8,910 nt of DNA. Origin: Bacillota bacterium. Lineage in GTDB: Bacteria; Bacillota; Bacilli; Bacillales_B; DSM-18226. This document shows positions 144 through 5,333 of this stretch, one piece after another. The stretch is taken from positions 1 to 8,910 of the forward strand of contig JAKACS010000095.1 of assembly GCA_021821235.1 (NCBI GenBank), given 5' to 3'. Position 1 is the first letter of the stretch; each line of letters begins with the position of its first letter. The position numbers were made by a program, and so were the translations under genes. The notes under the pieces are model-generated. The model made no database searches and had not been told where the DNA came from. It worked only from the letters and a program-made list of their open reading frames with translations.

Positions 144-437
144 ATGGAAAAAAAGCCCTATGTAACAGCACCTGTAGTGCCTGCACAGCCAGTGCCTACT
201 GCACCGATGATGCCGATGCAAGAAATGGCCATGCCCACTGCGCCAACTTGTCCAACCTATATGCCGCAGTATGGTTATGAACAATGCTGCTATCCTATGC
301 CGATGTTTAGTCCTTGCTGTCCTCAAATGGTAAATCCTTGCTGTGGACCTGTTTTCGATCCATGCTGTTATCCGCCAGCCTTTGATCCTTGCTGTATGCC
401 GATGCAGCCATATTCCCCATATGGCTTTCCCTATTAA
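144..437 (+). CDS. Small Cys-Cys/Pro/Met-rich protein, probable spore coat component
   Basis: This 97-residue protein has no recognisable enzymatic domain. Residues 1-35 are rich in Pro, Met, Ala and Val. Residues 36-97 carry five Cys-Cys pairs, at 48-49, 58-59, 66-67, 74-75 and 83-84, at spacings of 8-10 residues. Most sit in units of the type (N/D/S)-P-C-C-x-P. One single Cys lies at 36, and the C terminus is rich in Tyr, Pro and Phe. There is no signal peptide or membrane segment. The composition suggests a structural protein cross-linked through disulfides or dityrosine, as in Bacillus coat and crust proteins, but I do not recognise it as a named Cot protein. The start is supported by AGAGGAG at 129-135. 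The gene stands alone between a sporulation-type -10 and its own terminator. Coat function is inferred from composition and promoter. Confidence 0.75.
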   Translation: MEKKPYVTAPVVPAQPVPTAPMMPMQEMAMPTAPTCPTYMPQYGYEQCCYPMPMFSPCCPQMVNPCCGPVFDPCCYPPAFDPCCMPMQPYSPYGFPY

Positions 438-2232: not shown

Positions 2233-3660
2233 GTGGAAACGAAAGGTTTATTTTTAAACGGAAAGTGGCTTGTCAAAGAGCGGACTTATCCATTGTATTC
2301 TCCGTACAGCGGCGAGCTGCTTGCCAACATCAGCAAAGCAGATCGGGATGATGTGGATGGAGCAATCCAAACCGCCCATAAGGTTTTTCAAGAGATGCGA
2401 GAAATGCCGGCATACAAACGAGCAGAAATCTTATATCGCGTTGTAGGACTGATAAAGGAAAACAAAGAAGAACTGGCAAAAATCATTGCACTCGAAGCGG
2501 GCAAACCGATTCGAGCCGCACGGGCTGAAATTGACCGGACTGTTGCAACCTATCAATTTGCCGGCGAAGAAGCAAAACGGATTTACGGTGAAACGATTCC
2601 GATGGACGCAGCACCCGGGGGGGAAAATCGGCTTGGAATGACATGGCGGGAACCGCTCGGTGTTGTTGCCGCCATCACCCCGTTCAATTTTCCGTTCAAT
2701 TTAGTCGCCCATAAATTGGGACCTGCATTCGCCGCTGGCAACACCGTTGTATTAAAACCAGCTAACCAGACACCGTTAAGCGCTTTAAAAATCGCAGAAA
2801 TCTTCCAGCAAGCGGGTCTTCCCGATGGCGCCCTTCAAGTGGTTTCAGGCAGCGGCAGTGAACTCGGTGATATTCTTGCTACCCACCCGCTGATTAAAAA
2901 AGTTACCTTCACTGGTAGCCCGGAAGTTGGAAAAGAAATTAAAGCAAAAGCCGGCTTACGCAAAGTAACGCTTGAACTTGGATCCAACTCTGCGGTAATT
3001 GTTGAACCCACAGCAAACCTAGAGCCGATTCTTGCCCGCTGTGTTGAAGGGGCATATGCTTATGCAGGCCAAGTCTGCATCTCGTTGCAGCGGATTTTTA
3101 TTCATGAATCAATTTACGAACAATTCAGCAATCGCTTCAGCGAATTAACCGATCATGTGAAAGTCGGTGATCCATTGGATGAAGATACAATGGTCAGTGC
3201 AATGATTCATGCCAAAGAAGCGGAGAGAATTGAATCATGGGTGGCCGAAGCTGTTGGTGAAGGAGCAAGAATTGTTTCTGGCGGTAACCGAAACGGTGCC
3301 AGCTTTGCACCTACTGCCTTGATCAATGTGTCAAAAGACATGAAAGTTTGCTGCCAAGAAGTTTTTGCCCCTGTCGTTGCTTTGATCCCTTATCAAAATC
3401 TCGATCAGGCAATCAGCATGGTCAACGATTCCAATTACGGATTAAACGTTGGGATTTTTACCGAAGACATCAATAAAGCCTTTTTTGCAGCGAAAAAAAT
3501 TGAGTCTGGCGCAGTCATCATCAACGATATTCCAACGTTCAGAGTGGATCATATGCCATACGGAGGGATAAAAGAAAGCGGTTACGGACGTGAAGGCATC
3601 AAATATGCCGTTGAGGAAATGACTGAATTAAAATTTGTAACGATCAAAACCTCGATCTAA
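2233..3660 (+). CDS. NAD(P)-dependent aldehyde dehydrogenase
   Basis: This 475-residue enzyme of the aldehyde dehydrogenase superfamily should oxidise an aldehyde to its acid. Catalytic features are intact: TPFNFP (149-154) with the oxyanion Asn152, LKPA with Lys175, the nucleotide-binding stretch TFTGSPEVG (225-233), the general base Glu248 in TLELGSN, the nucleophile Cys282 in GQVCIS, and Glu376 in QEVFAP. The context GQVCISLQRIF recalls the branch containing lactaldehyde, sulfolactaldehyde and succinate-semialdehyde-type enzymes, but the substrate is not determined. The start is GTG with a strong GAGGAGG (2219-2225) seven bases upstream. It is the first gene of an operon, with the iron alcohol dehydrogenase following after 17 bases. 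The pair looks like an alcohol-to-acid oxidation module, or the reverse for detoxification. Confidence 0.93.
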   Translation: METKGLFLNGKWLVKERTYPLYSPYSGELLANISKADRDDVDGAIQTAHKVFQEMREMPAYKRAEILYRVVGLIKENKEELAKIIALEAGKPIRAARAEIDRTVATYQFAGEEAKRIYGETIPMDAAPGGENRLGMTWREPLGVVAAITPFNFPFNLVAHKLGPAFAAGNTVVLKPANQTPLSALKIAEIFQQAGLPDGALQVVSGSGSELGDILATHPLIKKVTFTGSPEVGKEIKAKAGLRKVTLELGSNSAVIVEPTANLEPILARCVEGAYAYAGQVCISLQRIFIHESIYEQFSNRFSELTDHVKVGDPLDEDTMVSAMIHAKEAERIESWVAEAVGEGARIVSGGNRNGASFAPTALINVSKDMKVCCQEVFAPVVALIPYQNLDQAISMVNDSNYGLNVGIFTEDINKAFFAAKKIESGAVIINDIPTFRVDHMPYGGIKESGYGREGIKYAVEEMTELKFVTIKTSI

Positions 3661-3677
3661 AAGAAGGAGGAATTCAA

Positions 3678-4877
3678 TTGACTGTTTCAAAGCTTGTTTT
3701 TACTCCATTAAGCTATACGGGTTGGGGATCGCTTAAGCAATTGGTTCCCGAAGTGGGAAAATACCGCCCTGATAAAATTCTTATTGTAACCGATCCCACC
3801 CTCGTTTCACTTGGGTTAGTGAATCGGGTAATCGATCCCCTTGAACAGGAAGGTTATTCTGTAACAATTTATTCGAGCATCGTTCCAGAACCGCCGCTTG
3901 AAACAGGAGAAAAGCTCGTCCAGTTCACTCGGGAAGGCCGTTTTGACATGGTAATAGGTGTCGGCGGCGGAAGTGCTTTGGATTTAGCGAAATTGGCAGC
4001 TGTTCTCACTGACCATAAAGGCAATGTGGCAAGTTATTTAAATTTGACTGGAACAAATCAAATAACTAAAAAAGGGTTGCCGAAGATTTTAATTCCTACG
4101 ACGTCTGGTACAGGTTCTGAAGTCACCAATATCGCAGTTCTCTCTCTTGAGAATACAAAAGATGTCGTTACACATGATTATTTGCTGACAGATGCAGCTA
4201 TTGTTGATCCGGAGTTGACAGTATCCCTTCCGGCAAAAGTTACTGCTGCAACAGGGGTTGATGCGCTCACCCATGCAGTTGAAGCTTATATATCTATAAA
4301 CGCGAATCCGGCAACCGATGGTCTTGCACTTCAGGCGATTCGCTTAATTAGCGGTTCGATCCGAACTGCCGTAATGGATGGCAGTAACCGACAGGCACGG
4401 ATCGATATGAGCTATGGCAGCTATATTGCAGGTTTAGCTTTCTTTAATGCAGGTGTAGCCGGCGTCCATGCACTCGCATATCCGCTTGGCGGCCAGTTCC
4501 ATCTTGCCCATGGCGATTCGAATGCCGTTCTTCTCCCATATGTTATGGGGTATATCCGGCAAAGCTGCCCAAAACGAATGGCGGATATTTTCACTGCATT
4601 AGGCGGAGACATTTCAAATTTAACAGAAGACGAAGCATCCAGACAATGTGTGCATGAATTGAAACGATTGGTTTACGATGTTGGCATTCCTAATACGATC
4701 GCTGAATTTGGCATTCCCGAAGCTGCTTTATCCAAGCTTACTGAGGATGGAGTGAAGCAAAAACGGCTGTTAAACCGCAGTCCGCTCCCGCTTAGCAAAG
4801 AGGATATTTATGCGATATACAGCGCCGCATTTCATGGAAAGCTTGTTGAGCCAAAAACAAACACTTCAGCTAAATAA
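3678..4877 (+). CDS. Iron-containing (type III) alcohol dehydrogenase
   Basis: This 399-residue cytoplasmic oxidoreductase belongs to the Fe-ADH family and interconverts an alcohol and an aldehyde or ketone with NAD(P). The N-terminal nucleotide domain carries GVGGGSALD (94-102) and PTTSGTGSE (140-148). The metal ligands are all present at family spacing: Asp195 and His199 in DALTHAVEAY, His264 in GVHALAYPLGG, and His278 in HLAHGDSNAV. Glycerol, 1,3-propanediol, lactaldehyde and 4-hydroxybutyrate enzymes all share this scaffold, so the substrate is open. The start is TTG, chosen because AAGGAGG (3664-3670) lies seven bases before it and it gives the usual family N terminus. It is the second gene of the aldehyde dehydrogenase operon and is followed by a terminator. 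A small inverted repeat, TAACAT/ATGTTA (4875-4890), starts at its stop codon. Confidence 0.93.
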   Translation: MTVSKLVFTPLSYTGWGSLKQLVPEVGKYRPDKILIVTDPTLVSLGLVNRVIDPLEQEGYSVTIYSSIVPEPPLETGEKLVQFTREGRFDMVIGVGGGSALDLAKLAAVLTDHKGNVASYLNLTGTNQITKKGLPKILIPTTSGTGSEVTNIAVLSLENTKDVVTHDYLLTDAAIVDPELTVSLPAKVTAATGVDALTHAVEAYISINANPATDGLALQAIRLISGSIRTAVMDGSNRQARIDMSYGSYIAGLAFFNAGVAGVHALAYPLGGQFHLAHGDSNAVLLPYVMGYIRQSCPKRMADIFTALGGDISNLTEDEASRQCVHELKRLVYDVGIPNTIAEFGIPEAALSKLTEDGVKQKRLLNRSPLPLSKEDIYAIYSAAFHGKLVEPKTNTSAK

Positions 4878-4972: not shown

Positions 4973-4988
4973 TGTGATGCCTCTCACA
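4973..4988. promoter_or_regulatory. FNR/CRP-type operator upstream of the CGCGG gene
   Basis: TGTGATGCCTCTCACA is a perfect TGTGA-N6-TCACA palindrome, the consensus bound by Bacillus Fnr and related CRP/FNR-family regulators. Its centre is at 4980.5. The TACAAT at 5010-5015 would place transcription start at about 5022, so the site is centred at about -41.5. That is the class II activation position. The operator occupies the place of a -35 element, and no good -35 is present there. Among FNR-family members, an oxygen-responsive Fnr is the most likely binder in a Bacillus. Confidence 0.62.
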
Positions 4989-5018: not shown

Positions 5019-5042
5019 AAATGAAAGCGAGGTGATTCAATC

Positions 5043-5303
5043 ATGGAAAAAAATTGGTCTATTTCTCTAGAACATGATGAATATGAAACCAATATTGATC
5101 TTGTTCTAGAGGGCGCAATTAACGCAGTAGCTGAAACATCCAGCGGTTTTTATGTCAATCTCGTCACTCCTGCTAAATATGGCAATCCAGATGAGTATTT
5201 AACCGACGTTTTGAATTGCCAATTTGGTTCAACAATTCGATCAAAGTTTATCGATCAATGCGGCTGCGGCGGATATGTATTAAGAGTGTGGAAACAAGCT
5301 TAA
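5043..5303 (+). CDS. CGCGG-family protein, putative radical-SAM-modified RiPP precursor
   Basis: This 86-residue soluble protein has no signal peptide or membrane segment. Its C-terminal region carries Cys-Gly-Cys-Gly-Gly at residues 73-77 (DQCGCGGYVLRV), and one further Cys lies at 59. The N-terminal half is acidic, and residues 35-53 read GFYVNLVTPAKYGNPDEYL. From memory, this architecture matches proteins annotated as the CGCGG-family putative rSAM-modified RiPP, found in Bacillus relatives and haloarchaea. In that proposal a radical SAM enzyme modifies the Cys/Gly-rich tail, but the product is unknown to me. No radical SAM gene is present in the window. The start is supported by GAGGTGAT (5029-5036). 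The gene forms its own unit, with an FNR-type site upstream and a hairpin that includes its stop codon downstream. Family assignment is fairly confident; RiPP function is inference. Confidence 0.78.
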   Translation: MEKNWSISLEHDEYETNIDLVLEGAINAVAETSSGFYVNLVTPAKYGNPDEYLTDVLNCQFGSTIRSKFIDQCGCGGYVLRVWKQA

Positions 5304-5333
5304 AAAGCTTTGGTCACAAAGCCTTTTAAGCTT
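5296..5333 (-). terminator. Long hairpin terminator between convergent genes
   Basis: Positions 5296-5312 pair with 5317-5333 over a four-base loop, making a 17-pair stem. The single A/C mismatch (5306/5323) becomes a U-G wobble in the minus-strand RNA. On the minus strand the inner hairpin GCTTTG-TGAC-CAAAGC is followed by TTTTT, a standard terminator for the MATE gene. On the plus strand the same core is followed by CTTTT and could also stop the CGCGG transcript. The CGCGG stop codon at 5301-5303 lies inside the stem. Confidence 0.75.

Follow-up and report, generated by a model that had tools for sequence, protein, structure and literature searches.

A CGCGG-family gene of a Bacillota bacterium and the probable part of its family in anaerobic nitrate and nitric oxide respiration

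The gene considered here lies on a stretch of 8,910 nucleotides from a Bacillota bacterium (contig JAKACS010000095.1 of assembly GCA_021821235.1), hereafter the window. At 5043–5303 on the forward strand an ATG-initiated open reading frame (ORF), placed there also by a first-pass annotation made from the sequence alone, encodes a protein of 86 residues that belongs to the CGCGG family, TIGR03995, and has a predicted TusA/SirA-like fold. A ribosome-binding-like sequence, GAGGTGATT, read directly at 5029–5037 on the same strand, ends 5 nt before the ATG. Further upstream, centred some 62 nt ahead of the ATG, is the palindrome TGTGATGCCTCTCACA (4973–4988), of the FNR/CRP-type form TGTGA-N6-TCACA. 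At the other end a strong hairpin (5296–5333, + strand; −18.1 kcal/mol, z = −4.8 against shuffles) lies where the CGCGG and MATE genes converge and is likely to be a bidirectional terminator of both. The consensus terminator scan missed it, and the consensus promoter and terminator scans gave no match on the CGCGG gene's own strand. With palindrome, ORF, hairpin and then a convergent gene, the CGCGG gene looks monocistronic. The question is whether its product is a peptide precursor, as the name of the family suggests, or takes part in anaerobic nitrate and nitric oxide (NO) respiration.

How secure is the assignment to the family? The protein matches TIGR03995 at 118.2 bits (E = 1.5e-34) against a curated cut-off of 70, with positions 1–83 of the 83-position profile covered; the first-pass annotation had already named the family and was right. 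This match, together with the 157 homologues found at E ≤ 1e-3 in one search and the 582 found in a profile search, tells us that 5043–5303 is no chance ORF. Among the named relatives the nearest belong mostly to Bacillus, Cytobacillus and Neobacillus, and Haloferax volcanii carries a copy. Pfam PF26005 is precomputed for homologues, yet our own Pfam scan of the CGCGG protein gave no match at E ≤ 10. The family is entitled 'CGCGG family putative rSAM-modified RiPP protein' (target_X_rSAM), that is, a ribosomally synthesized and post-translationally modified peptide (RiPP) altered by a radical SAM (rSAM) enzyme. The enzyme presumed to be the partner of the family is TIGR04053. Haft and Basu, in 2011, reportedly dealt with rSAM target peptides; among the matches listed in our literature search there was no paper on the TIGR03995/TIGR04053 CGCGG family.

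The motif occupies residues 73–77 (codons for Cys73-Gly-Cys75-Gly-Gly77 at 5259–5273, + strand) and is followed by nine residues, YVLRVWKQA. It is therefore not the tail with which the protein had at first been said to end. Few parts of the protein are as conserved as IDQCGCGGYVLRVWK. In a 91-sequence alignment, some of whose members were retrieved with the pattern IDQCGCGG, which favours the motif, C73, C75, G76 and G77 are conserved in all 91 sequences and G74 in 90; one homologue outside that alignment (P0135) has CGCEG in place of CGCGG. The only cysteines of the window protein are 59, 73 and 75.

The AlphaFold 2 (AF2) model of the protein has a mean predicted local distance difference test score (pLDDT) of 94.6, with no residue below 70. 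It predicts a TusA/SirA-like domain in which CGCGG forms the turn of the C-terminal beta hairpin, and TusA, TsuB and SirA are among its best structural matches. Foldseek returned no match at E ≤ 0.001 from the viral and PDB libraries, and solved relatives sought by sequence gave nothing convincing (best E 0.32). No unstructured leader with a core peptide was found, the whole chain being folded in the prediction; the first-pass annotation had remarked on a folded-looking N-terminal region and the want of an evident leader cleavage site, and its doubt that the product is a secreted peptide is supported. The same order of elements and the same top matches (8k1r, 3lvj, 3hz7 and 2lxr) were obtained with a predicted model of DUF2249 (PF10006), a model built on four sequences, for a fold type that is common. 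DUF2249, the family that includes DrpA and DrpB of Thermus thermophilus nitrate respiration, is a neighbour of CGCGG in some Bacilli and haloarchaea. The two families differ at the Cys-X-Cys hairpin, which is conserved in the CGCGG family but missing from eight aligned DUF2249 sequences.

Is the palindrome upstream of the gene more than an accident? TGTGA-N6-TCACA corresponds in half-site and in spacer length to the boxes of regulators of the FNR/CRP type. It is present in the window without mismatch, as the sole match at ≤1 mismatch; 40 of 200 window shuffles reach one match at that threshold, so the window box is weak on its own. Moreover, since it was first spotted there by eye, only the other loci form an independent test. 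When 83 CGCGG ORFs, two degenerate second copies (L029 and L067) among them, are examined over 250 nt of upstream sequence, the best match has 0, 1, 2, 3 and 4 mismatches in 4, 36, 22, 14 and 7 cases, respectively. A box at ≤1 mismatch thus precedes 40 of the 83, whereas among other ORFs at these loci it precedes 42 of 1038; these others (like those of the haloarchaeal comparison below) are mechanical ORFs and not curated genes. Within 200 nt upstream the box is found at 38 of 81 loci, where permuted half-sites give at most three matches and other spacer lengths at most five; after redundancy reduction it is found at 25 of 61. The CGCGG gene of the Bacilli would, to judge by this putative box, be under an FNR/CRP-type regulator.

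A different palindrome is found in the haloarchaea. CGCGG relatives occur on 32 plasmid records (43 places); the 20 listed are all haloarchaeal and, less two without annotation, provided 18 records for examination, one place each. In the region from −200 to +60 around each annotated start, exact CGAA-N4-TTCG is present in 12 of the 18 CGCGG promoter regions but in only 23 of 285 other ORF upstreams, and eleven of the 12 have it at −50 to −52 relative to that start. According to PMC5746218, this palindrome is common to the denitrification-related genes and ahbD, and work cited there found it essential for nirK transcription. The neighbours are of the same kind: nirK, qNor, DUF2249 or ric lies within about 6 kb of CGCGG at 13 of the 18 loci, nirK being close in six, and in Halomarina (L115) nirK and the CGCGG gene stand a single base apart. 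Comparison with PDB 3ayf confirmed the qNor of L109, L110, L111, L118, L123 and L128; the gene of L113 with a qNor-type annotation proved to be an ordinary oxidase. Five Halorussus loci (L116, L125, L127, L129 and L130) have none of the four genes nearby, and all five have the exact palindrome. These Halorussus loci share another neighbourhood, which in most comprises MmgE/PrpD, MBL-fold proteins and glycosyltransferases.

Respiratory genes are also found beside CGCGG in a few Bacilli, of which we examined 80 loci (80 of the 93 related stretches found). In Schinkia azotoformans (L016) and Calidifontibacillus (L009, L033) a stretch of about 10 kb holds narG with narH, CGCGG, a small ORF, DUF2249 and qNor; L020 has CGCGG, small ORF, DUF2249 and qNor as in L016, but no nar on its 4.3-kb contig. 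The NarG of L016, L009 and L033 and the NarH of L016 score far above the NCBIfam cut-offs, the qNor of L016 matches PDB 3ayf and its DUF2249 gene matches PF10006. NarG lies 1.3 to 6 kb from CGCGG in L036, L037 and L042, and qNor adjoins it in G277. In L101 DUF2249 and CGCGG are adjacent on the same strand, beside a DUF1858-DUF2249 (DrpB-like) gene.

Does the association extend to whole genomes? We compared a class sample of 299 genomes, 12 of them with CGCGG, and a family sample of 106 genomes, 27 with CGCGG. DUF2249 is present in 12/12 class-sample genomes with CGCGG against 56/287 without, and in 26/27 against 43/79 in the family sample. For NarG the family-sample counts are 18/27 and 16/79 and, among the genomes that have DUF2249, 17/26 and 8/43 (p = 1e-4); for qNor the class-sample counts are 7/12 and 27/287. 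NirK was rejected as a general partner in the Bacilli (0/12 with CGCGG against 11/287 without, class sample). Because the genomes are related, the p-values of these co-occurrences are only a guide.

What, then, of the rSAM enzyme? The first-pass annotation had seen no modifying enzyme beside the gene, and indeed the window proteins scanned yielded no rSAM enzyme. Nor is an adjacent rSAM enzyme recurrent in the 80 Bacilli-type loci by motif scan, neighbour clustering or TIGR04053 search: the last gave no match, and the motif scan two unrelated-looking hits only, both more than 6 kb away. At the level of the genome TIGR04053 exceeds its cut-off in 66 of the 67 relatives' genomes searched directly, but the enzyme is also common where CGCGG is absent. 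The exception, G251 (about 3.6 Mb; contig C1 alone 3.62 Mb), has CGCGG without TIGR04053, and its best match to the AhbD model is MoaA; a second exception, G422 of the family sample, is probably a fragmented assembly. In the class sample TIGR04053 accompanies CGCGG in 10/12 genomes (11/12 counting the split match of G260) and is present in 83/287 without it. The family-sample figures are 26/27 and 58/79, so that 58 of the 84 TIGR04053 genomes lack CGCGG. Given DUF2249, the family-sample association disappears (25/26 with CGCGG, 42/43 without, p = 0.86), while the class sample yields 10/12 against 35/56 (p = 0.15, or 0.046 with G260). The class-sample search, at E ≤ 1e-90 with at most six first-look candidates scored per genome, missed G260 and a third copy in G295, and TIGR04053 is possibly undercounted likewise in the 287 genomes without CGCGG.

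The next-best score of TIGR04053 proteins is to AhbD, the heme b synthase; AhbD proper (TIGR04545) was not found over cut-off in four genomes searched. H. volcanii has a TIGR04053 match at E ≤ 1e-90, its member P0196 has a UniRef name beginning 'Coproh', and the TIGR04545 cut-off was exceeded by only one of 14 controls, which is not named. We therefore infer that P0196 is the heme synthase HVO_2144 of PMC5746218. In that paper, deletion of HVO_2144 strongly reduces anaerobic growth and protoheme rescues it, to about the parent level for dimethyl sulfoxide (DMSO) respiration; for denitrification the rescue is partial and occurs only with DMSO added. A heme-making role would explain why TIGR04053 adjoins qNor and why it is present in many genomes without CGCGG, while, with the rescue only partial, a further role of the enzyme is conceivable. 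TIGR04053 stands directly beside qNor in five class-sample Bacilli (G277:C102, G313:C46, G036:C9, G103:C1 and G058:C1). It lies about 3 kb from CGCGG in L093 and in L094, and in Halarchaeum L109 the distance is 2.7 kb. Many family-sample genomes have two TIGR04053 copies, in score classes of about 522–541 and 487–511 bits, which suggests two subfamilies.

We conclude, with moderate confidence, that the CGCGG protein, small and probably cytosolic, serves anaerobic nitrate and nitric oxide respiration as an accessory or sensor protein and is not a RiPP precursor. The links between its relatives and the genes of that respiration make the role of a helper or sensor the likelier one. The tie of the family to anaerobic N-oxide respiration, supported at the level of sequence by promoter boxes, neighbours and co-occurrence with DUF2249 and NarG, was absent from the first-pass annotation, as was the FNR-type box. 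That annotation's reading of the protein as a RiPP with a maturase fares badly, TIGR04053 being AhbD-like and common without CGCGG. The RiPP label of TIGR03995, which is at odds with the predicted fold, the context and the conditional co-occurrence, is probably wrong.

By what means might such a protein act? By analogy, it may work like the DUF2249 proteins DrpA and DrpB, which affect expression of nitrate-respiration genes in Thermus (PMC6282519). Through its conserved Cys73-X-Cys75, placed at the turn of the hairpin, the protein could bind a metal or react with a nitrogen oxide, and this Cys-X-Cys might be a redox site; the protein would then pass the metal or NO state to the respiratory machinery, or protect that machinery. 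TIGR04053 would accompany CGCGG because the two belong to one physiology, in which TIGR04053 makes heme anaerobically as an AhbD-type synthase. Four DUF2249 proteins are induced in denitrifying H. mediterranei (PMC11218638), and the string 'CGCGG' does not occur in the main text of that RNA-Seq paper. Two results weigh against the respiratory role. In 73 of the 80 Bacilli-type loci, and in the window, none of NarG, qNor and DUF2249 lies in the stretch fetched; and sequence homology to DUF2249 had to be rejected, hhalign giving probabilities of 0.2% and 0.7%, though one alignment is co-linear over 65 columns. TIGR03995 is already catalogued, but the functional link to N-oxide respiration is the new part, nothing on it having been found in the literature searches made. 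If the family is placed in the anaerobic N-oxide regulon, its function can be put to the test in H. volcanii, an experimentally tractable host. The DUF2249/Drp factors of denitrification, of which little is understood, would gain a protein with conserved cysteines, and the view of TIGR04053 as a RiPP maturase is called into question.

What if the family name is nonetheless correct? NCBIfam proposes that the protein is a substrate of TIGR04053, an rSAM/SPASM enzyme; modification, for example a thioether, would occur at CGCGG, and the product could be a protein-borne cofactor. The near-invariance of the motif, the presence of TIGR04053 in almost all relatives' genomes, its proximity in L093, L094 and L109, the class-sample association that outlasts DUF2249 once G260 is counted, and the only partial rescue of denitrifying growth by heme in the ahbD deletion (PMC5746218) are all in its favour. 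We regard it as unlikely. CGCGG is found without the enzyme in G251 and in G422, the latter probably a fragmented assembly, most TIGR04053 genomes of the family sample do without CGCGG, and there the association is gone given DUF2249. The enzyme itself is nearest to AhbD, has the presumptive HVO_2144 as its H. volcanii member, adjoins qNor and was not found at any of the 80 Bacilli-type loci, and the chain of its supposed substrate is predicted to be wholly folded. A combination of the two ideas, in which a TusA/DUF2249-type protein of the N-oxide regulon of Bacilli and haloarchaea has its CGCGG hairpin converted by the AhbD-like enzyme into a cofactor that stays part of the protein and serves in redox reactions or NO binding, seems to us more doubtful still. 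If true, this cofactor would be a post-translationally made denitrification component not described in the literature searched.

It is improbable, too, that the protein is a TusA-like carrier of persulfide sulfur, destined for example for the molybdenum cofactor of nitrate reductase or the maturation of its Fe-S clusters. A supply of sulfur is indeed needed by NarG and by Fe-S centres that NO has damaged, TusA, TsuB and SirA are among the best structural matches, and at the haloarchaeal locus L114 an annotated TusA-family gene lies about 9 kb away. The sequence identity to the TusA/SirA/TsuB (YeeD) carriers, however, is 6–14%, and the carrier cysteine of TusA sits in a CPxP motif at the first helix, which the CGCGG protein lacks, its conserved cysteines being in the C-terminal hairpin. 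By eye, no recurrent cysteine desulfurase or sulfurtransferase was seen in the 45 neighbour clusters listed, not all of which were family-scanned. Least probable of all, in our estimate, is an unrelated housekeeping function, with the N-oxide ties arising from lineage inheritance and chance adjacency. The relatedness of the sampled genomes would allow this, as would the window and the 73 loci without NarG, qNor or DUF2249 nearby; against it speak the regulatory palindromes, one in each of two domains of life and unrelated to each other, and the adjacency of nar, nir, nor or DUF2249 genes in both Bacilli and haloarchaea.

A second family of this kind was met at a CGCGG locus. Htur_1727 (TIGR04031), distinct from CGCGG and likewise a small 'rSAM-partnered candidate RiPP', lies near nirK/qNor and the CGCGG gene in a denitrification island of a haloarchaeon (L123:640–2162, + strand). 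Its SAM-like partner TIGR04347 (pseudo-SAM) scores next best to NirJ1/AhbC, so that this RiPP label may also need review.

Several other genes recur at the loci of the Bacilli. An ORF of about 90 residues overlaps the 3′ end of CGCGG in 34 of the 80 loci (L001–L080; e.g. L014:10246–10524, + strand), though not in the window; in the three scanned it had no Pfam or NCBIfam match over cut-off. An ORF of about 103 residues is divergent from CGCGG, just upstream on the other strand, in 13 loci between L038 and L066; a HesB/IscA-like identity, guessed by eye, was dropped, as Pfam gives no match. In Alicyclobacillus-type genomes a membrane-looking protein of about 430 residues without Pfam or NCBIfam match adjoins CGCGG (L079:8550–9866, L095:7935–9218), and a protein of about 112 residues is also recurrent.

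In the window itself the other genes with Pfam matches encode an AI-2E transporter, a thioesterase, aldehyde and iron alcohol dehydrogenases, the MATE protein, a periplasmic-binding-type protein and an acetyl-CoA hydrolase/transferase; they give no clue to the function of the CGCGG gene. The aldehyde dehydrogenase and iron-type alcohol dehydrogenase form a tandem (2233–4877, + strand) just upstream of it. At 144–437 (+ strand) lies a gene for a Pro/Cys-rich protein of 97 residues without Pfam match, whose repeated Cys-Cys-Pro-like units are, by eye only, spore-coat-like.
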